From an uncultured Lachnospiraceae bacterium (GTDB lineage: Bacteria > Bacillota > Clostridia > Lachnospirales > Lachnospiraceae), in assembly GCA_947063675.1 (NCBI GenBank), contig CAMSTM010000006.1:1-45402 (forward strand): DNA of 45,402 bases, given 5' to 3'. Each line of letters begins with the position of its first letter. The first letter of the stretch is position 1. The notes below the pieces were generated by a model. That model had not been told where the DNA came from. It searched no databases and saw only the letters and a program-made list of their open reading frames with translations. A program made the position numbers and the translations under genes. Below, piece after piece: positions 9,705 through 41,824 of the stretch.

Positions 9705-11177
9705 TCACCCGTTATAAAAATCCGACGGACTCTGCCCCGTATAAGCCCGAAACATGCGGCTGAAATAAAACTGGTCCTTATACCCCACCTGCTCCGCAAT
9801 ATCTTTAATATACAGCTTCTGCCCAGGAACGCTCATCAGCTCCTTCGCCCTCTCCATCCGAAGTCTGGTCAGGCACACCGTAAAGGACTCGTCGCCGTAT
9901 TTTCTGAGCAGCTTGCTCAAATATGGCTGTGAAATCCCCATCTCCCTCCCAACGGAAGCAAGCGTCAGCTGTCTGGAAAAATTATCCCCTATATATTTCA
10001 TCACTTTTTCATAATATTCACGGGTATCCATCTTCTCAAACACAGGATTTTCTTCCGAACCGACAAACAAAATCTGGTCGATATTTTCACTCAGCTCCTG
10101 CATATTTTCAGCATTGGCAAAAGCCTCCTCAACCAGGAACCCCAGTTCTCCCTCGCAGGACAGCTTTTCTCCAAACTCCTGCAAAACGTACAGGATATGG
10201 TTAAACATATTTTCCACCCAGAGCTGTGGACGTTCCTCCTCCCCCCACAAAAGCAGAAGCCGCTTTACCTCCTCCCGCGCCTTCTGACGGTTCTTCTTTT
10301 TACAATACGCCTGAAGGGGATACAGATAATCCTGAATATTCCCCTCCCGTTCGGCGCTGCCGGGTTCCTCCAGATGAATCACTCTGCTCTTCCCTAATAC
10401 AAGCTTTCTGGCCAGAGTCTGATACAGCTTATCAATGGTATCCGCCAGCCCCATAGTCTTCACCGGCTCATCTGACGTTACCACTGTAAAATATTCTGTG
10501 CCTGATTTTTGTTTTTCTATCTCTGACTGTATCAGCCGAAGAAAATCATGTTCCTCTATCAGCTCATGGGGGCAGATACAGAGCATCTCCCTCTCGTCTC
10601 TCCCGTAAATCAGCATCCTCTCATTGATATCGGAAAAAATTTCCTTTCTTCCATATCCTGAAAAACGGCATGGAAGTCCGTTCATGCGGATTATCGCAGC
10701 ATAATAAAGTCCTTCCGGGAAATATCTGTCGATTATTTTCTCCGAAATCCCGTCTCCGGCACACAATTTTCGGATAATCAGATTTCTGTTCCTCCAATAC
10801 TGCACCTTCAAACGCTCTTCCATATTCTCCAGCATCCTCTGCAGCTCCAAAGGCACCACAGGCTTTAGGATATAATCGCTGACGCCCAGCCTGATGGCAG
10901 ACTGCGCATAGCTAAAATCCGAGTAACCGCTGACAAGCACAATAATAATATCTTCCTTTTCCTCCACAATCCGCTTTACCAGCTCTATTCCGTTAAGTAC
11001 CGGCATCCGTATATCAGTAATCAGGACATCCGGTTGAAGCTGCCTTACTTTCTTTAACGCTTCACCGCCATTGCTCACGCTGCCCGACACATAATACCCT
11101 GGGCACTTTCTGGCAATAATCGTTTCAATATGCTTACGCGCTGCAGGCTCGTCATCTGCTACCAGTACGCTGTACAT
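9705..11177 (-). CDS. YesN-type response regulator with AraC DNA-binding domain
   Basis: 490 residues. The N-terminal receiver domain (about 1-120) shows the acidic pair in VLVADDEPAARKH, the phospho-acceptor Asp in VLITDIRMPVLNG, and the conserved Lys in YILKPVVP. A long central linker follows. The C-terminal about 100 residues form two AraC-type helix-turn-helix units (LTLASVGREMGISQPYLSKLLRKY and IKDIAEQVGYKDQFYFSRMFR). Its start overlaps the kinase gene by 26 bp, so the pair is translationally coupled. Such pairs sit with CUT1 transporters in Firmicutes and activate uptake and hydrolase genes when the kinase senses sugar. The likely targets are this operon and the divergent glycosidase gene. 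Confidence 0.93.
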   Translation of the reverse strand: MYSVLVADDEPAARKHIETIIARKCPGYYVSGSVSNGGEALKKVRQLQPDVLITDIRMPVLNGIELVKRIVEEKEDIIIVLVSGYSDFSYAQSAIRLGVSDYILKPVVPLELQRMLENMEERLKVQYWRNRNLIIRKLCAGDGISEKIIDRYFPEGLYYAAIIRMNGLPCRFSGYGRKEIFSDINERMLIYGRDEREMLCICPHELIEEHDFLRLIQSEIEKQKSGTEYFTVVTSDEPVKTMGLADTIDKLYQTLARKLVLGKSRVIHLEEPGSAEREGNIQDYLYPLQAYCKKKNRQKAREEVKRLLLLWGEEERPQLWVENMFNHILYVLQEFGEKLSCEGELGFLVEEAFANAENMQELSENIDQILFVGSEENPVFEKMDTREYYEKVMKYIGDNFSRQLTLASVGREMGISQPYLSKLLRKYGDESFTVCLTRLRMERAKELMSVPGQKLYIKDIAEQVGYKDQFYFSRMFRAYTGQSPSDFYNG

Positions 11178-12933
11178 TTGCTTCCCTCTCCGTTTTTACT
11201 CCAATAGTAACTGCAGTCCCGCGCTCCTTTGTATTTTCCAGCTCAAAAACCAGCTTATCCGCATATAGAAGATACAATCTCGCATACAGATTCAGCAGTC
11301 CCATACCGCCTATTTCCATTTCAATCGCACTGTTGCGCACGTGAATCTTTTCCCTGATTTCCTTTATCCCCCGGCGCAGGTCATGCAAAACGTCTTCCTT
11401 TATTCCCTCGCCATTATCCTCCATTCGGATATACCATCCTGTATTATCCCGAAAGCCTCTTACCTGAATCCGCATTACCACATCTTCATTATTATAGCCG
11501 TGGAGAACACTGTTTTCAATTAACTGTTGAAGGACGATTTTGGGCAGGATTTCCTTTTCTATGGACTTGTCACAGGTAATCGTTACCTGAATCCGCTCCT
11601 CATAACGGAACTGCAGCAGATTCACATAGCGTTTCATGTAATCCAGCTCGTCCTTCACCGGGGCGTATCTTTCCACATTACTGGTGGAATACCGCAGCAT
11701 ACCGGCCAGATTTCCGCAGATTTCACAGATTCCCTCATCGCCGTCCTCAAGCCCCCTGGTGGAAATCACATTCAGAACGTTATAGAGAAAATGCGGATTT
11801 ACCTGCGCCTGCAGCGCGTCGAACTGTGCCTGCAGCTGTAAAATTGACAGCTTCTTTTCCGTGTCCGCCGCTTCTCCAAGGCGTTTTAAAAGATTTTCAT
11901 AGGCATGTCCAAAAGCTACAATCTCATCATCGGTGGTATTGATTCTCACCGCCTTAGCGATGTCTGTGGTTTCCGTCTGTTCCATCAGGACCCTGATTTC
12001 ATGAATTGGCTGTGTCAGACGATTGGATATCAGAACGATAAACAACATAAACAGGCCGAATACACATACAATAAGTAAAAATGCAAAAAACAGAGTATTC
12101 TTTTCCGCCCTGCCCGTCATTTTCATATTTTCCGCCAGAATCATCCTGACACCGGCTCTGGTGGTGCTGACAGAAACCAGGCAGTCCCCGAGCCGGTAAT
12201 TTCCGTCATCTTTTCCTTCTGCCAGATTCATAAACATTTCAGTCTGTCCGTCCGCATCGGAATACAGCACGGTATTGTCCGGCAGAACCGCTATGATGTT
12301 GATGCTGTCATCTGGAAGATAAAACATTTCCTCCAGCACAGAAGCCTTCTGCTGCACCTCAATATAACCCATTTTCTCGCCCTGAATGGCCCGAATCATG
12401 GAAAAAATTTCTTCCTTTTTATCTCTTTTCCAGTTATCCTTGTGTACGCCTGTCAGAAACGGTTTCCCGAAAAGCGAATCCGCCTCCCCGAGCCACTGAT
12501 TATTCTCCTCGCCCATGACAATATCAATGAACGATTCGTCATTGTTCATGGTGCAGTAGACCAGATTTCCATTGGGATTAAAGAAAATTACCCGGTAAAA
12601 ATTTGACAGAAGATAGTTATTGCTCAGCTTATTTCTCAGCGTTGTCTCATGAGCTATCCGCATCCTGTCATAGTACTGATTATCAGAATTGGAAAGCCCT
12701 CTGATGGCGTCAAGCATGTCCATATCGGAAAGTATATAATCCGTGACCTGATTCATAACGTCATAGGCGCTGTCAAACTGAATTGAAAACTGCCTTGAAA
12801 GAAAGTTCAGATTGTCAACCTTTTCCATCCGCAGCTCCCTGATATTGAAATAGCACCACAATAAACCAAGGAGCAGCGAAAGGACAAAGGCCAGAGCCGC
12901 ATAAGATAAAATCATTTTACGCCTGAAACGCAT
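11152..12933 (-). CDS. YesM-type sensor histidine kinase
   Basis: 593 residues. Two membrane segments (about 8-28 and 280-305) bracket a large extracellular sensor region; a HAMP-like segment with RLTQPIHEIRVLM follows. The kinase core is of the His_kinase/HATPase type found in YesM/LytS: ALQAQVNPHFLYNVLNVIS holds the phosphorylated His, QLIENSVLHGY is the N box, and MEDNGEGI and GMGLLNLYARL are the nucleotide-binding motifs. It starts 7 bp after the second permease gene and overlaps the regulator gene. It likely senses a sugar directly or through the binding protein and phosphorylates the YesN-type partner. Confidence 0.93.
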   Translation of the reverse strand: MRFRRKMILSYAALAFVLSLLLGLLWCYFNIRELRMEKVDNLNFLSRQFSIQFDSAYDVMNQVTDYILSDMDMLDAIRGLSNSDNQYYDRMRIAHETTLRNKLSNNYLLSNFYRVIFFNPNGNLVYCTMNNDESFIDIVMGEENNQWLGEADSLFGKPFLTGVHKDNWKRDKKEEIFSMIRAIQGEKMGYIEVQQKASVLEEMFYLPDDSINIIAVLPDNTVLYSDADGQTEMFMNLAEGKDDGNYRLGDCLVSVSTTRAGVRMILAENMKMTGRAEKNTLFFAFLLIVCVFGLFMLFIVLISNRLTQPIHEIRVLMEQTETTDIAKAVRINTTDDEIVAFGHAYENLLKRLGEAADTEKKLSILQLQAQFDALQAQVNPHFLYNVLNVISTRGLEDGDEGICEICGNLAGMLRYSTSNVERYAPVKDELDYMKRYVNLLQFRYEERIQVTITCDKSIEKEILPKIVLQQLIENSVLHGYNNEDVVMRIQVRGFRDNTGWYIRMEDNGEGIKEDVLHDLRRGIKEIREKIHVRNSAIEMEIGGMGLLNLYARLYLLYADKLVFELENTKERGTAVTIGVKTEREANVQRTGSR

Positions 12934-37005: not shown

Positions 37006-38454
37006 TTACACTTTCTCTCCACCAGTATCAGCTATTTCCACATCTATCCCGCCGTCCTCTGAAATAATAACCGCAAAGCACTGATTGCACTCATATCCTC
37101 TGCAGCCTACCAGCCAGTTCACATAATTTTTCAGGGAATTATATCTTGCCCCTCTGGCCATATCCGCTTCAACAACGCTTTCGCCATCCAGTATCGCGCC
37201 AATCGCATGTATATTTCCCTGGTAATCCGCTATCAATGCTCCGTCTATAGCCGATAGTCCAATCAAAAGTTCCCTGAACCTCTTTTTTTCTTCCTCACCA
37301 TACTCTGATTTAAGAATGGAAACGGGCTTTATTCTGCATAAACGATTATTTCTGTCAAGCCTGTCAAGCTCATCTTCAAACGCTTTGCCATCTAAGAATA
37401 CCGCCGAAGTTCCATGCGCCTGTTCCTTCAAAGCATAAATAGTATCCTTAATATCCTTTTCATTCTCTAAATGTAATGCGTCAAGTCCTATCACTTCTGT
37501 CTGTTTTTCATCTGAAAAATGAAATTTTCCTTCTTCATAATGCAAAAGCTCCTTGCCGTTACCTGTCAGCCTCCATTTTAAATAGCCATTAAATGTAATC
37601 TGATTTCCAACACTTTCTCCCAGGGTCGCAATTCCCCTCATCACCTGTTCTTCCCCTTCCCTGCCAACTACCAGTACCCTTTCGCCTTTTGCCGTTTCAA
37701 GAACTTTCCTGACAAATCTGAGGTTTCCACTGGAAAACTTCCATTTACTGCTGTTCCTTCCCTCAAAGGATATCTCCATTTGGCTTTGCGGCATTTCTCC
37801 TAAATAAATTCTGGAAAATAATTCTCTCTTTTCATATTTCCTTGCAGAAATAAGAGAGATAAATTCTCTGTCAATTCCCCCTGATTTTTTACAGAGACTT
37901 TCCGTATAGTTATTTCGAATCCCCTCTTTATTTTTCACAGCCCGGAACAGCCTTTCCTCTATGTAGGGTATCTGTTTATAATAAGACAGAAAAATCAGGT
38001 CCGACACTTCTTCTCTGGTTTTCTCCATAACTTCCCCAAGTATCGCTGATACAGCTTCTCCCCATATCTTCCCGCGTACCAGCCAGAGGATGTCCTTTTT
38101 ATTTCCAAGTCCCCTTTCCTTTATCCTGGAATCATTTTTGCCTCTTTCGCAAAAATAATATATAAACTTTTCCTTTTCTGCAAACTTTTTGAGCGCTTCG
38201 TCAATTTTTTCATCTGATTTAGCATTTTCTGCATCTAAAACTGCCAGAAAATACTTAAGCCACACTTCGTTTTCTTTCGTACCGGAAAAAACCGACCAGC
38301 TATACTCTTCAGAACCGACAATCCATGGATATTCTTTTTGAGAATTTCTTATAAATAAAAAGAATTGTACCCCTTCCGCCAGCTCAGAAAAACTATCTTT
38401 CAGTTCCTTTTCAAATGCCCCGGCAAAAACCTGAACCTGCTCGTCAAGCATCAT
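37006..38454 (-). CDS. Protein with C-terminal DisA-N/diadenylate-cyclase-like domain (predicted nucleotide sensor)
   Basis: 482 residues, second gene of a two-gene operon. The N-terminal about 250 residues are unrecognised, Lys/Glu-rich and mainly helical. From about 250 a beta-rich part with ETAKGERVLVVGREGEEQVMRG and TFNGYLKWRLTG leads into a C-terminal DAC-like domain: LIGLSAIDGALIADYQGNI (DGA at 404-406), RGARYNSLKNYV (434-445), and FAVIISEDGGIDV. This matches diadenylate cyclases, which have DGA, then GTRHRAA, then VIVVSEE. Here the RHR triplet is RYN, so catalysis is probably lost; sensor-type DAC relatives of conflict systems (DACNV/DACND-like) are the best analogues. Three Cys in nine residues (C451, C456, C459) are unusual. 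The ATG at 38454 has AAAGG at 7 bases; the gap to the metalloprotease-like gene is 14 bp. Confidence 0.75.
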   Translation of the reverse strand: MMLDEQVQVFAGAFEKELKDSFSELAEGVQFFLFIRNSQKEYPWIVGSEEYSWSVFSGTKENEVWLKYFLAVLDAENAKSDEKIDEALKKFAEKEKFIYYFCERGKNDSRIKERGLGNKKDILWLVRGKIWGEAVSAILGEVMEKTREEVSDLIFLSYYKQIPYIEERLFRAVKNKEGIRNNYTESLCKKSGGIDREFISLISARKYEKRELFSRIYLGEMPQSQMEISFEGRNSSKWKFSSGNLRFVRKVLETAKGERVLVVGREGEEQVMRGIATLGESVGNQITFNGYLKWRLTGNGKELLHYEEGKFHFSDEKQTEVIGLDALHLENEKDIKDTIYALKEQAHGTSAVFLDGKAFEDELDRLDRNNRLCRIKPVSILKSEYGEEEKKRFRELLIGLSAIDGALIADYQGNIHAIGAILDGESVVEADMARGARYNSLKNYVNWLVGCRGYECNQCFAVIISEDGGIDVEIADTGGEKV

Positions 38455-38468
38455 CCTTTATCCTTTCT

Positions 38469-41159
38469 TTATCTGCCTCTTTTGCATTTATCCAAATCGT
38501 CTTCCAGCTTTTGCTGATAGGTATCTATGTATTTCCGAATATCCAGAATTATTGTCTCAACATTCTCTTTCGAAAATGCATGAAACATTTCCAGAATTTC
38601 TTTCTGCATTACTCCCATATTTCCTTCCATCTGGGATGAAAAATTTTTACGGCACTTTACCAAGTACTGTAACGCCTTTTCCAGAACAGAACTATGATAT
38701 ATAATCTCTTCCTTCTCCTGAACTTCCCAGAGCTCCTTTTTATAGTTTTCTCCATAGATACGCATCTTTTCCCACAGGACAGAAGCCAGAACCGAAATAT
38801 CCCCTTCCTGCTCTGATATCTCAATCACCTCATCAAACGACCATTTCTGCGGGCAGTCGTCTTCGTTGCTTATCATACACAGACACACTAAAGCTCCACG
38901 AACAAGCCCCTCCGTCTGTCCAATCAGTGTTTCAAGGCCTATTCCCTGGTCATATGCACCAAGAAGAATGGATTTCAAATACTCTTCCATTGACAAATCC
39001 AGAAGCATCACCGCGCCTAAATCAGCAAAGCACTCTTTTAACAGATACATTAATTTATCAATAACTGCATAGGCTCCCCAATCAGAAAGATTCCACTCTG
39101 AAACTCGGCAAAACTCCAACAACCATTTTTCCAGACTATTTTCAAGTCTTTCCCCATCTCCTCTCGCCTGTTCGCCGCTTTTTCCTTTACTCAGTTGATA
39201 AATAAACTCTCTATTGGGCAAATATGCATAAATTTTCTGTTCCTCGCATATCCAGCACAAATGCTCCAACATCAGTTTTTTTAGCATATCGCTATGATAT
39301 CCATACTGATGTATACGTTTTTTCCAGTATTCCCTTCCCTTTTCTCTGTCAAGGCTCTTTCTGTTAAAACGTTTTTCTATAAACTTATCATTATCCTCCC
39401 ACTCCATGTAGCTTTCCAGCTGCTGTACTATTTCATTTTCAAGTGCCTCCCAATAGCTCCCTCCCCCTTCCAGATGAGTTATTTCATTAAAGTGTTCTTC
39501 GTCCCCAAAATATCCAGCCAATTTCTCATATAGATACCTCACCACGACCTCTGAAACCATTCTTACCAGACACTCATACCGAAAATCTCGCTGCCTGATT
39601 CCCCTTCCGACAAAATGACTCACCTCATGGGCCATCATTACGAACATCAGCCATGGACTGTAAACCTGCTTTTCCGGCATATCTACAAGAAACAGTCTTT
39701 TATCTTCTATCAGCTCCGGATAAATCTCCCTTACCTGCATATTATTGGCCACTCCGGGGCATGTCAGGAACTCATATTCATGCCTTTTCTTTTCACTTGC
39801 CCCCAGTTCGTTTAAAAGCGATTTCAGATTATAAATAACAGCATTATAAAATGCATTCATTTTTGCCGGAGTTTCATATATGCGAATGTTAAAATCCGGC
39901 ACCTCCGTAAACTGCCTGTCGGACCGCATAGAGTTTTGCGCATACATATTAAAGCTGGTCAGGAAATCATAAAAATAACCATATTTATCTTCATCTTCTC
40001 TTTTATCCGCCTCTTTCACCATAGTGACCAGCATTTTCATTGGTCTGAGTGCAGACACAAAAATATAATCATGAAAAGACGACTTTTCATATTTTTCCAA
40101 TGAATTCAGCACAGACAATATTTCTTTTCTTACCATTCGTCCTCTGCCGCTTTCATTATCCAATCTCAGCACCTGACATTCTTTTCTCAGGCTTTCGCTT
40201 ACCGTAACAGCTTTATCTCCGCCACTTCCCCCGTCCTTTTCTCTGACCCCTCTTTCTTTTCCTTCCTCACCTAAAATGGTTGTAACTCCAATAATATTTT
40301 TCTGATAAATGGAGCTTGAGTGATTCAGCGCACCGGTTTCGTCCTGATAAAATGAGAGAAAAAGGCTCCATGGGATTCCTTTCATAATAATCAATTCATC
40401 ATTGCAGCCCAAAACAGCCTTCTTTTCTGTTTTTATACCAGTTGCTTCTCCAGACCATTTATCATTAATTACATTGTATACTTCTTTGATTCCTCCGGGA
40501 TATTTTTCAATAATATGAATATACGCAGAATCCAGAATTCCGTTTAATCCGGCAATTTTATCTGAATTATTGAGAAACGATTTCCTTATGGCCGGAATCG
40601 TGTAGCTGTAATATAAATTCCAACCATTTTGACTCAAAACAGAACTCCCGTCGCCTGTGTGAAAACTGTCTATCAGCTTTGTCCCGGCGGAGTACTCCTC
40701 ACATGCCAATACCAACAATAAATCGCTGCTGTCCAGAGTTAAATAGGAAATTGCGCATACCCCTTTATTTGCGGATAAATCTCTCTCCAAACGCCTTCTG
40801 TTATAGCATAGCCCGTTCAGGTTCCCTCCATTGACCTCATCCTGTATCAAAATCAAAAAAAGAAAAGGATATTTATCACTTTCTATATTTTTCCAAAACT
40901 GCATATCCTCCTCGCAGCTATCTTCTTCCGTACGAAAGCCAAAAATAGTCTGCTCTGTATAACTTCCGTCTAAATGCAGCTTTTCTGATTCCAGATACAA
41001 CCACATTTTTTCAAAATTCCAGATTCCATCCTCCAAAAGATTGTCCCCAATATTCACACCGTCGAAATATCCATATGCCAGGTATTTCCAGTCCCTGCTC
41101 GTCTTCGCCGGAGGAAGGAAATCACTGTAAAGAGTAAACGGCCTGCATATATTCCTCAT
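38469..41159 (-). CDS. Large putative zinc metalloprotease with unknown N-terminal region
   Basis: 896 residues, cytoplasmic (no signal peptide or membrane helix). The first about 300 residues look like alpha/beta repeats of ferredoxin/ACT type (YLAYGYFDGVNIGD at 28-41; CAISYLTLDSSDLLLVLACEE at 135-155) with a segment LGCNDELIIMKGIP at 250-263. I do not recognise the family. A low-complexity linker with Gly/Lys/Glu (295-320) follows, then a helical region. MMAHEVSHFVGRG (508-520) is a canonical HExxH zinc motif, and LLKECFADLGAVMLL (706-720) supplies a plausible third ligand Glu709 and Asp713, as in gluzincins. The 190-residue spacing between them is long. The ATG at 41159 follows GAGAGG. It precedes the DAC-like gene by 14 bp. 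I infer that nucleotide sensing controls proteolysis, but no substrate is evident. Confidence 0.75.
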   Translation of the reverse strand: MRNICRPFTLYSDFLPPAKTSRDWKYLAYGYFDGVNIGDNLLEDGIWNFEKMWLYLESEKLHLDGSYTEQTIFGFRTEEDSCEEDMQFWKNIESDKYPFLFLILIQDEVNGGNLNGLCYNRRRLERDLSANKGVCAISYLTLDSSDLLLVLACEEYSAGTKLIDSFHTGDGSSVLSQNGWNLYYSYTIPAIRKSFLNNSDKIAGLNGILDSAYIHIIEKYPGGIKEVYNVINDKWSGEATGIKTEKKAVLGCNDELIIMKGIPWSLFLSFYQDETGALNHSSSIYQKNIIGVTTILGEEGKERGVREKDGGSGGDKAVTVSESLRKECQVLRLDNESGRGRMVRKEILSVLNSLEKYEKSSFHDYIFVSALRPMKMLVTMVKEADKREDEDKYGYFYDFLTSFNMYAQNSMRSDRQFTEVPDFNIRIYETPAKMNAFYNAVIYNLKSLLNELGASEKKRHEYEFLTCPGVANNMQVREIYPELIEDKRLFLVDMPEKQVYSPWLMFVMMAHEVSHFVGRGIRQRDFRYECLVRMVSEVVVRYLYEKLAGYFGDEEHFNEITHLEGGGSYWEALENEIVQQLESYMEWEDNDKFIEKRFNRKSLDREKGREYWKKRIHQYGYHSDMLKKLMLEHLCWICEEQKIYAYLPNREFIYQLSKGKSGEQARGDGERLENSLEKWLLEFCRVSEWNLSDWGAYAVIDKLMYLLKECFADLGAVMLLDLSMEEYLKSILLGAYDQGIGLETLIGQTEGLVRGALVCLCMISNEDDCPQKWSFDEVIEISEQEGDISVLASVLWEKMRIYGENYKKELWEVQEKEEIIYHSSVLEKALQYLVKCRKNFSSQMEGNMGVMQKEILEMFHAFSKENVETIILDIRKYIDTYQQKLEDDLDKCKRGR

Positions 41160-41182: not shown

Positions 41183-41212
41183 AAAGCCCGTATTTACTTG
41201 ACGGGCTTTTTT
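41183..41212. terminator. Hairpin terminator/attenuator in the leader of the metalloprotease operon
   Basis: AAAGCCCGT (41183-41191) pairs perfectly with ACGGGCTTT (41201-41209) around a 9-base loop. On the plus strand TTT follows (41210-41212). On the minus strand the arm ends TTTAATATAT, a weaker U-tract, so it may attenuate the operon. The minus-strand loop contains the TAA (41194-41196) of the short frame 41194-41415. Confidence 0.7.
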
Positions 41213-41415
41213 AGTACACTTCCTGTAATTTTTATATCATCTCTGCAAGGCTTCTTTATTGCAAATCCGGATACGCCTTTTGAGTTGATATTGGCATCTT
41301 CATTCGAATTTAACCTCCAAAAATCACTCGGTTTCCTACGTGACGTTACCGATTTTTCGATTTCGTTCCGGCTGAATGTAATTCCTGATAACCTTCTGCT
41401 CAATCCTCTCTCCAT
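41194..41415 (-). CDS. Short basic leader protein (73 residues), unrecognised
   Basis: An ATG at 41415 has AGGAG at a 7-base distance, a strong ribosome site. The product is very basic (many Arg/Lys; SRRKPSDFWRLN and FAIKKPCRDDIKI) and matches no family I know. Its stop lies inside the loop of the leader hairpin at 41183-41209, and it ends 34 bp before the metalloprotease ATG. It overlaps another short frame (41336-41567) in a different phase. It could be a translated leader controlling the operon, a small independent protein, or the remnant of a broken gene. Codon use gives no strong support. Confidence 0.45.
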   Translation of the reverse strand: MERGLSRRLSGITFSRNEIEKSVTSRRKPSDFWRLNSNEDANINSKGVSGFAIKKPCRDDIKITGSVLKKPVK

Positions 41416-41641: not shown

Positions 41642-41824
41642 TGATTTTTCAAAATTCGACAATAAATGACGGCAAAGCAGAAAGTTTAATTCCCCTTTTA
41701 CTTCAATTAAATAAATTATATCATCACTTTATCATCAATTACAATATACCTATAATTCCTTATATATTGCTCTTTAGCTCTTAAGTTCAAAAGCAGGATG
41801 GGGGCAGAAAAAGCATTCCCCATA

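Follow-up and report, generated by a model that had tools for sequence, protein, structure and literature searches.

What joint task could link a metalloprotease-like protein to a nucleotide-cyclase-like protein encoded right beside it? The question is raised by a locus of an uncultured Lachnospiraceae bacterium (GCA_947063675.1, contig CAMSTM010000006.1, positions 1-45,402 of the forward strand; this whole stretch of 45,402 nucleotides is hereafter called the window), in which two open reading frames (ORFs) lie side by side:

38469..41159, minus strand: P0001, N-terminal domain plus gluzincin-like metalloprotease domain, 896 amino acids (from the ORF, motifs and alignments)
37006..38454, minus strand: P0002, DACNH-DAC protein, nucleotide-cyclase-like partner, 482 amino acids (from the ORF, profile matches and motifs)

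We find that the pair recurs across genomes as a unit in which the protease is constant and its partner changes. We read it, with a probability of about one half, as a two-component conflict module that is sporadic and probably moves horizontally, and that most likely serves abortive-infection-type anti-phage immunity, the protease controlling an exchangeable effector.

The recurrence is most apparent from the protease side. Over 32 loci, the partner is a DAC protein in 21, a membrane protein in seven (one tentative), a SIR2-type protein in three, and absent in one. This count omits L059 (partial), L061 (contig end), L062 (weak and different-looking) and a weak match with stops in genome G668; L078, which holds part of the protease only, and L070 and L071, whose partners are missing the DAC domain, are counted as DAC, and L060 is counted as membrane though its partner lies 428 bp away. 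Among the 14 carrier genomes of the family, the nearest same-strand partner is DAC-like in nine (the window's own genome, L039-L045 and L048), a membrane protein in four (L016, L046, L047, L049) and of SIR2 type in one (L050); three further genomes of the window's genus add DAC partners at L013 and L014 and membrane partners at L015 and L017. Seeded with the DAC-type subclade, a contig scan of 84,980 species turned up 16 loci (six of which repeat earlier loci and were counted once), with a DAC-family gene upstream on the same strand in 16/16, a figure biased by the DAC-type seed, so that the 9/4/1 split within the family is the less biased one; in two of these 16 loci the partner is truncated before the DAC domain. 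Recurrent pairing in other genomes, which the initial annotation had named as a check on its proposal of a new two-gene system, is thus found, with a DAC-like partner in 9/14 family carriers and 21/32 loci.

The partner kinds are swapped in the same place beside the protease. SIR2-type partners occur at L050, L057 and L149. The first two match Pfam SIR2_2 with 62.5 and 56.6 bits, respectively (cut-off 24.5), as well as the PADLOC models of ThsA, LmuA and Dsr proteins, while the third was recognised by eye from GAGV, TYNYD and HVHG stretches, which we take to be SIR2-type motifs. The membrane partners (L015, L016, L017, L046, L047, L049 and, tentatively, L060) have three to four hydrophobic segments, lying in the N-terminal half in six of the seven.

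Adjacency is kept in two gene orders: the protease comes first in the window, L013, L040 and L043, which form a clade of the protease tree, and the remaining 17 DAC loci have the reverse order. In a comparison with 16 other pairs, the closely similar G022 copy not among them, the window protease is 15-33% identical to its counterparts and the DAC protein 19-25%. Protease and DAC distances are correlated over 17 pairs (Mantel r 0.882, uncorrected for species relatedness; 0/5000 permutations as high). Chance adjacency is ruled out by the 21 DAC-type loci, the two gene orders and the correlated distances. In the protease tree the window falls inside a supported four-row DAC clade (99/96), and the two SIR2 versions that it contains group together as a clade (100/99; L149 is absent from this tree). 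Mapping the partner labels (DAC, membrane, SIR2, none) onto the protease tree takes 4 changes, against a minimum of 3 and 9.3 for shuffled labels. The DAC tree places the protease partners on one side of a branch and six other DACs on the other, with weak support (87/64).

At the locus itself, both minus-strand ORFs are as the initial annotation had described them, with P0002 beginning 14 bp downstream of the P0001 stop (38455-38468). An AraC-type regulator flanks the pair on one side and a SpoU-type methylase on the other. The A+T-richness that had been noticed by eye is borne out by a G+C content of 0.402 for the pair versus 0.483 for the rest of the window. Genome G022 carries a copy at the same site with 93.6% DNA identity over 7.9 kb, and comparison with it gives a ratio of nonsynonymous to synonymous substitution (dN/dS) of about 0.17 in the protease gene; in the DAC gene, of which the in-frame part was compared, the ratio is 0.35. 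Such values are the pattern expected for genes selected for their protein. We note that the DAC gene of G022 (L013, 13290-13540) matches in two pieces, the first short and with a stop, and that its long ORF holds just the later part; sequencing error and real damage are both possible.

What kind of protein is P0001? Two motifs stand out:

39615..39629, minus strand: HEVSH (residues 511-515), HExxH zinc-binding/catalytic motif, conserved in relatives
39021..39035, minus strand: ECFAD (residues 709-713), ExxxD motif with E709 as candidate third zinc ligand, conserved in relatives

H511, E512, H515 and D713 are identical in 26/26 aligned relatives and E709 in 25/26, with D in L060, which puts these motifs, already noticed in the initial annotation, beyond chance; HExxH and ExxxD are both invariant in the 18/18 rows of alignment A5. 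An HExxH motif with a distal ExxxD is the gluzincin signature, and P0001 carries a metalloprotease signature of this type, with a zinc site and fold that are putative, from sequence. The protease domain spans approximately residues 330-896 and is preceded by an N-terminal domain (N-domain, approximately residues 1-330) with a GYFD motif at 30-33. We draw the border there because the two halves are separate neighbouring genes in L015, L016 and L017 and, by position, also in L046. D33, W89 and G251 of the N-domain are each identical in 24/26 rows, and its profile matches 13/17, 15/16 and 0/6 protease loci in three locus sets.

P0001 has no match above threshold in Pfam, NCBIfam or PADLOC. Over the 26 protease rows, no Pfam family is common to more than one row, and PADLOC HEC-01B is matched by 1/26 (E 4e-4). 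Two profile searches of the PDB listed four rows each, all of which we take as chance matches. The best of them is RNase L for the protease profile (E 0.001), at profile positions 545-720, downstream of HExxH, and no protease is among the matches listed. A likeness of the N-domain to Lrp/AsnC-like RAM repeats was set aside as a hint (hhalign P 0.011 for the whole and 0.004 for the second half; probability <10%).

The partner, P0002, is marked by the following features:

37666..37866, minus strand: DACNH domain match (residues 197-263), Pfam PF21750, 22.6 bits, cut-off 27
37237..37248, minus strand: IDGA (residues 403-406), DAC motif 1, with D404 and G405 invariant in 21/21 rows
37135..37155, minus strand: RGARYNS (residues 434-440), at the RHR position of canonical diadenylate cyclases, with G435, N439 and S440 invariant in 21/21 rows
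37051..37062, minus strand: SEDG (residues 465-468), at the SEET position of the genome's own CdaA-like protein, with S465 and D467 invariant in 21/21 rows

The DACNH match of P0002 lies under the curated cut-off, and Pfam DAC (PF02457) gives no match at all. In alignment A9 (21 rows: 19 protease partners and 2 others), Pfam DACNH is matched by 18/21 rows and Pfam DAC by 11/21 (E up to 0.01), and we therefore assign P0002 a predicted DACNH domain followed by a DAC domain through its family rather than through its own matches. The DisA-N-like C-terminus that had been described for the second protein is accordingly DAC-like. P0002 also matches NCBIfam NF053872 (DS2_3_antiphage), with 88.7 bits and an E of 2.8e-25 over residues 198-472. 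All 19/19 untruncated partners keep D-G-[AS], [RK]-[YFH]-N-S and S-[ED]-D. The genome's one separate canonical DAC, L129, has DGA, R-H-R-A and SEET, and since it has R-H-R-A and SEET where P0002 differs, P0002 is a divergent DAC subtype. It keeps the motifs of the cyclase subtype of DS-2, a defence system to which we return below, and cyclase activity is predicted. Elsewhere, at L019 (9027-11915), a DACNH-DAC protein adjoins an HD-domain-like protein (read by eye) and not a protease; DACNH-DAC proteins may, from this locus, have several partner kinds.

How might the two proteins work together? In the reading that we favour, the N-domain/metalloprotease protein would be the constant sensor and switch, and the neighbouring gene would encode the exchangeable effector. 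A trigger, either the phage or phage-caused cell damage, would be sensed by the N-domain and render the protease active, and the active protease would switch on the effector, in the simplest case through cleavage. The SIR2-type versions would then drain NAD+, the membrane-protein versions would make the membrane permeable, and the window's version would release the DACNH-DAC protein to consume ATP and overload the cell with c-di-AMP or a related nucleotide. We favour a sensor-protease upstream and an effector downstream because the protease with its N-domain is constant, because the partner changes, and because SIR2 and membrane proteins often serve as killing effectors.

The opposite direction of control, with the DAC protein making or sensing a nucleotide on infection and this nucleotide switching on the metalloprotease as the killer, strikes us as unlikely. 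Such a scheme is close to that of the initial annotation, which had the second protein bind a nucleotide and thereby switch on proteolysis by the first. It would fit the cyclase motifs kept by the DAC protein and its relationship to the cyclase of a CBASS-like system, cyclic-nucleotide-gated Lon-type proteases such as CalpL are known, and the N-domain could be a nucleotide sensor. However, in 10/32 loci (one tentative) the protease stands beside a SIR2-type or membrane protein with no DAC beside it, and the switch can therefore not be a DAC nucleotide in general. P0001 also shows no recognised nucleotide-binding sensor domain in Pfam, NCBIfam or PADLOC, and its 26 aligned rows share no Pfam family. 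For the second protein, the retained DS-2-like cyclase motifs likewise speak against the role of sensor given to it in that annotation.

The same pairing and exchange data would fit a toxin-antitoxin-like arrangement, in which the partner is the toxic part and the protease its constant controller, degrading the partner in healthy cells until phage inhibition of the protease or of its expression releases it. Sequence alone gives no separation between this logic and activation by the protease, and no observation argues directly against it. Most pairs of this type, however, have a small antitoxin, which the large protease with its separate N-terminal domain does not resemble, and we consider the arrangement quite improbable.

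Within the favoured reading, a more specific proposal is possible, which we put forward tentatively and hold to be somewhat less probable than its negation: that an undescribed sensor-metalloprotease family forms the centre of a class of defence systems into which different effectors (SIR2, membrane pore, nucleotide cyclase) can be plugged, and that the DAC here would be a killing effector, by ATP drain or by a flood of c-di-AMP or a new nucleotide, rather than the maker of a messenger that gates another effector. If true, this would add a metalloprotease-controlled branch to bacterial immunity, would mean that a DAC can occupy the effector slot, would make the role of the DACNH-type cyclases found with CBASS directly testable, and would give a function to gut Lachnospiraceae proteins that have no family in the libraries searched.

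The protease is sporadic at each taxonomic level searched. With the protease-domain profile, and the own genome counted, it is found in 14/397 genomes and 13/334 genera of the family and in 7/392 genomes of the order, two of these matches being weak; in the phylum 2/398 genomes match, the non-own one weakly and with a different-looking sequence. The full-length protease profile matches 2/391 genomes of the class (own genome counted), and a search of relatives with P0001 itself matches 5/98, own included. Named carriers are Blautia sp. An81, a metagenome-assembled genome (MAG) of [Clostridium] symbiosum, and Parablautia muri, whose protease protein is identical to that of G029, a genome of the window's genus; the other MAGs are mostly labelled Lachnospiraceae. 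Genomes G002 and G006 hold orthologues of the flanking AraC-type gene and of another flanking gene, which we take to be a glycosidase, with the pair absent. A fixed core gene or housekeeping operon is ruled out by these sporadic counts and pair-less flanks, and the family-wide fixed synteny that the initial annotation had named as a refutation is not what is seen. The sole copy under a non-Bacillota label, in a MAG labelled Muribaculaceae (L074), has a protease that groups with Lachnospiraceae sequences, and its contig may therefore be mis-binned.

The neighbourhood scan took in up to three ORFs of 100-1000 amino acids per side, giving 120 proteins from 26 loci. These neighbours match 38 PADLOC families at E up to 1e-15, of which the 25 listed are matched by one or two proteins each (no control set); HerA, RdrB, AriA and AbiLi are among the matches listed, and many of the neighbour matches come from one AbiLi-like ATPase gene at L049 (10486-11862, also given as 10489-11862; PADLOC E 4e-66). 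Of 97 Pfam families matched, most of the 25 listed have metabolic or regulatory roles; resolvase, recombinase and phage-integrase domains occur in two neighbour proteins each. Searches of a plasmid collection recovered seven records with DAC relatives, covering 16-58% of the query. A viral, phage or plasmid home of the protease is ruled out for the collections and the two viral-contig scans searched.

Several observations weigh against our favoured reading. The 120 neighbours, taken with no control set, give scattered matches and no clear defence-island signal, whereas the initial annotation had named frequent closeness to defence genes as support. Neither the plasmid and phage collections nor the two viral-contig scans yielded the protease, and the phages yielded no DAC protein either. 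At the sensitivity used, the membrane partners do not form a single homologous family, mutual homology being seen within L015-L017 only, and L058 has no recognisable partner, with an ATPase-like gene 132 bp upstream. In two closely related MAGs (L070, 5897-6883; L071, 5891-6883) the partner keeps its DACNH part and is without the DAC catalytic domain. The N-domain appears general across the proteases yet strongly divergent outside the DAC group, the latter because its profile matches 0/6 loci in one locus set. The protease tree has long branches and its supported branches allow a single origin of the DAC type, and the two trees disagree on the long-branched, DAC-first L048, whose protease groups with the DAC-first proteases but whose DAC groups with the protease-first DACs; the missing correction for species relatedness in the distance correlation counts on the same side. 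Finally, the open-access literature searched yielded no functional test of any member. What stands of the two-gene system first proposed is a recurrent, A+T-rich and sporadic unit with a zinc-protease signature and a DAC-like partner; the nucleotide-gated protease and frequent vicinity of defence genes are not supported by these data.

Upstream of the protease gene lie three further features:

41194..41415, minus strand: small ORF of 73 amino acids with a Shine-Dalgarno-like sequence, ending 34 nucleotides before the protease gene; membership in the unit uncertain
41183..41209, minus strand: hairpin between the small ORF and the protease gene, with the small ORF stop codon in its loop (from sequence and predicted fold)
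41715..41744, minus strand: candidate promoter-like site TTGTAA-18-TATAAT with TG before the second hexamer, approximately 555 nucleotides upstream

The metalloprotease could mature a small protein, for instance the product of this upstream ORF, in stress or peptide processing, with the partner transducing the stress via a nucleotide, NAD+ or the membrane. The small ORF with its Shine-Dalgarno-like sequence 34 nucleotides before the protease gene would suit this, as would the mostly metabolic or regulatory Pfam families of the neighbours (25/97 listed). Moreover, conflict systems have been described in which zincin peptidases act with substrate proteins that are small and diverge rapidly (PMC7159879). 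We nevertheless regard this reading as distinctly doubtful: the SIR2 partners match defence-type models, the sporadic distribution is unlike a housekeeping role, and the small ORF is absent in 11/27 loci and, among the 16 where it is present, related only between the window and L013 and between L014 and L068. The G022 ORF has the same length with 4/73 amino-acid differences, in L040 this place is taken by an unrelated 64-amino-acid ORF along with a predicted hairpin, and inspection revealed no motif shared among the small upstream ORFs. A conserved third gene was therefore rejected, the ORF being unrelated or absent outside G022; it may encode a leader peptide or a substrate, or be there by chance.

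One promoter for both genes, as had been claimed, is plausible only, the candidate site being one of 21 promoter-like sites in the upstream region versus 12.6 expected. Rfam gives no match at gathering threshold at the locus. In Parablautia muri (G029), a 1358-amino-acid protein with TPR matches and a presumably DUF2971-like C-terminus is encoded upstream of the DAC-protease pair (L014, 8543-12619), and at L018 a 334-amino-acid protein resembling it precedes the DAC gene.

How does the pair compare with known systems? No system of a DAC protein with a metalloprotease was found in the open-access literature searched. CalpL, to which the initial annotation had drawn an analogy, is a serine Lon protease with a SAVED domain, associated with type III CRISPR and gated by a cyclic nucleotide. 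The likeness is that of a protease in a nucleotide-linked conflict system; P0001 differs in its HExxH/ExxxD metalloprotease signature and has no SAVED or Lon Pfam match at E up to 1, and with no match above threshold in the three libraries named, we see no relation. The likeness to Thoeris ThsA, Lamassu LmuA and Dsr1/Dsr2 lies in the SIR2 partners of L050 and L057, which match those models, and in that of L149, SIR2-like by eye, whereas the window's own partner is a DAC; other genes of Thoeris, Lamassu or Dsr systems are not among the 25/38 neighbour PADLOC families listed, no gene-by-gene search having been made. The zincin MPTase/FxSxx-COOH systems (VMAP, FtsH ternary) (PMC7159879) share with our locus a metallopeptidase in a conflict setting and a small, rapidly diverging neighbour gene, but no ternary-system genes are recognised beside the window pair (other loci were not searched for them).

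The DAC partner has its own points of comparison. With CdaA/DisA (PF02457), P0002 shares the D-G and S-E-[ED] motifs in the same order, its IDGA at 403-406 providing the DGA motif; it differs in having R-Y-N-S instead of R-H-R-A, so that the RHR motif is missing, and in its lack of a PF02457 match. A further likeness is to the CBASS system DS-2, which, according to the DefensePredictor paper (PMC13092281), consists of a phospholipase, a cGAS-like enzyme and a DAC, and loses phage defence when two predicted catalytic residues of the DAC are mutated. P0002 is of the same DACNH-DAC kind, but its score against NF053872 is far under the family cut-off of 630, so that it falls outside the family, and the window pair is without an adjacent CD-NTase or phospholipase, the partner of P0002 being a metalloprotease. 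Among plasmid relatives of P0002, L125 has R-L-N-A at the place of R-Y-N-S. A DS-2-like operon of patatin, nucleotidyltransferase and DACNG-DACNH protein, its third gene annotated as hypothetical, lies on the conjugative Citrobacter plasmid NZ_CP029730.1 (IncC,IncP; L126, 1800-5474). Its DS-2-like protein has I-D-G-T, R-Y-N-S and S-D-D; it differs from P0002 in I-D-G-T versus IDGA and in a DACNG domain that was not found in P0002, while R-Y-N-S and S-[ED]-D are as in P0002.

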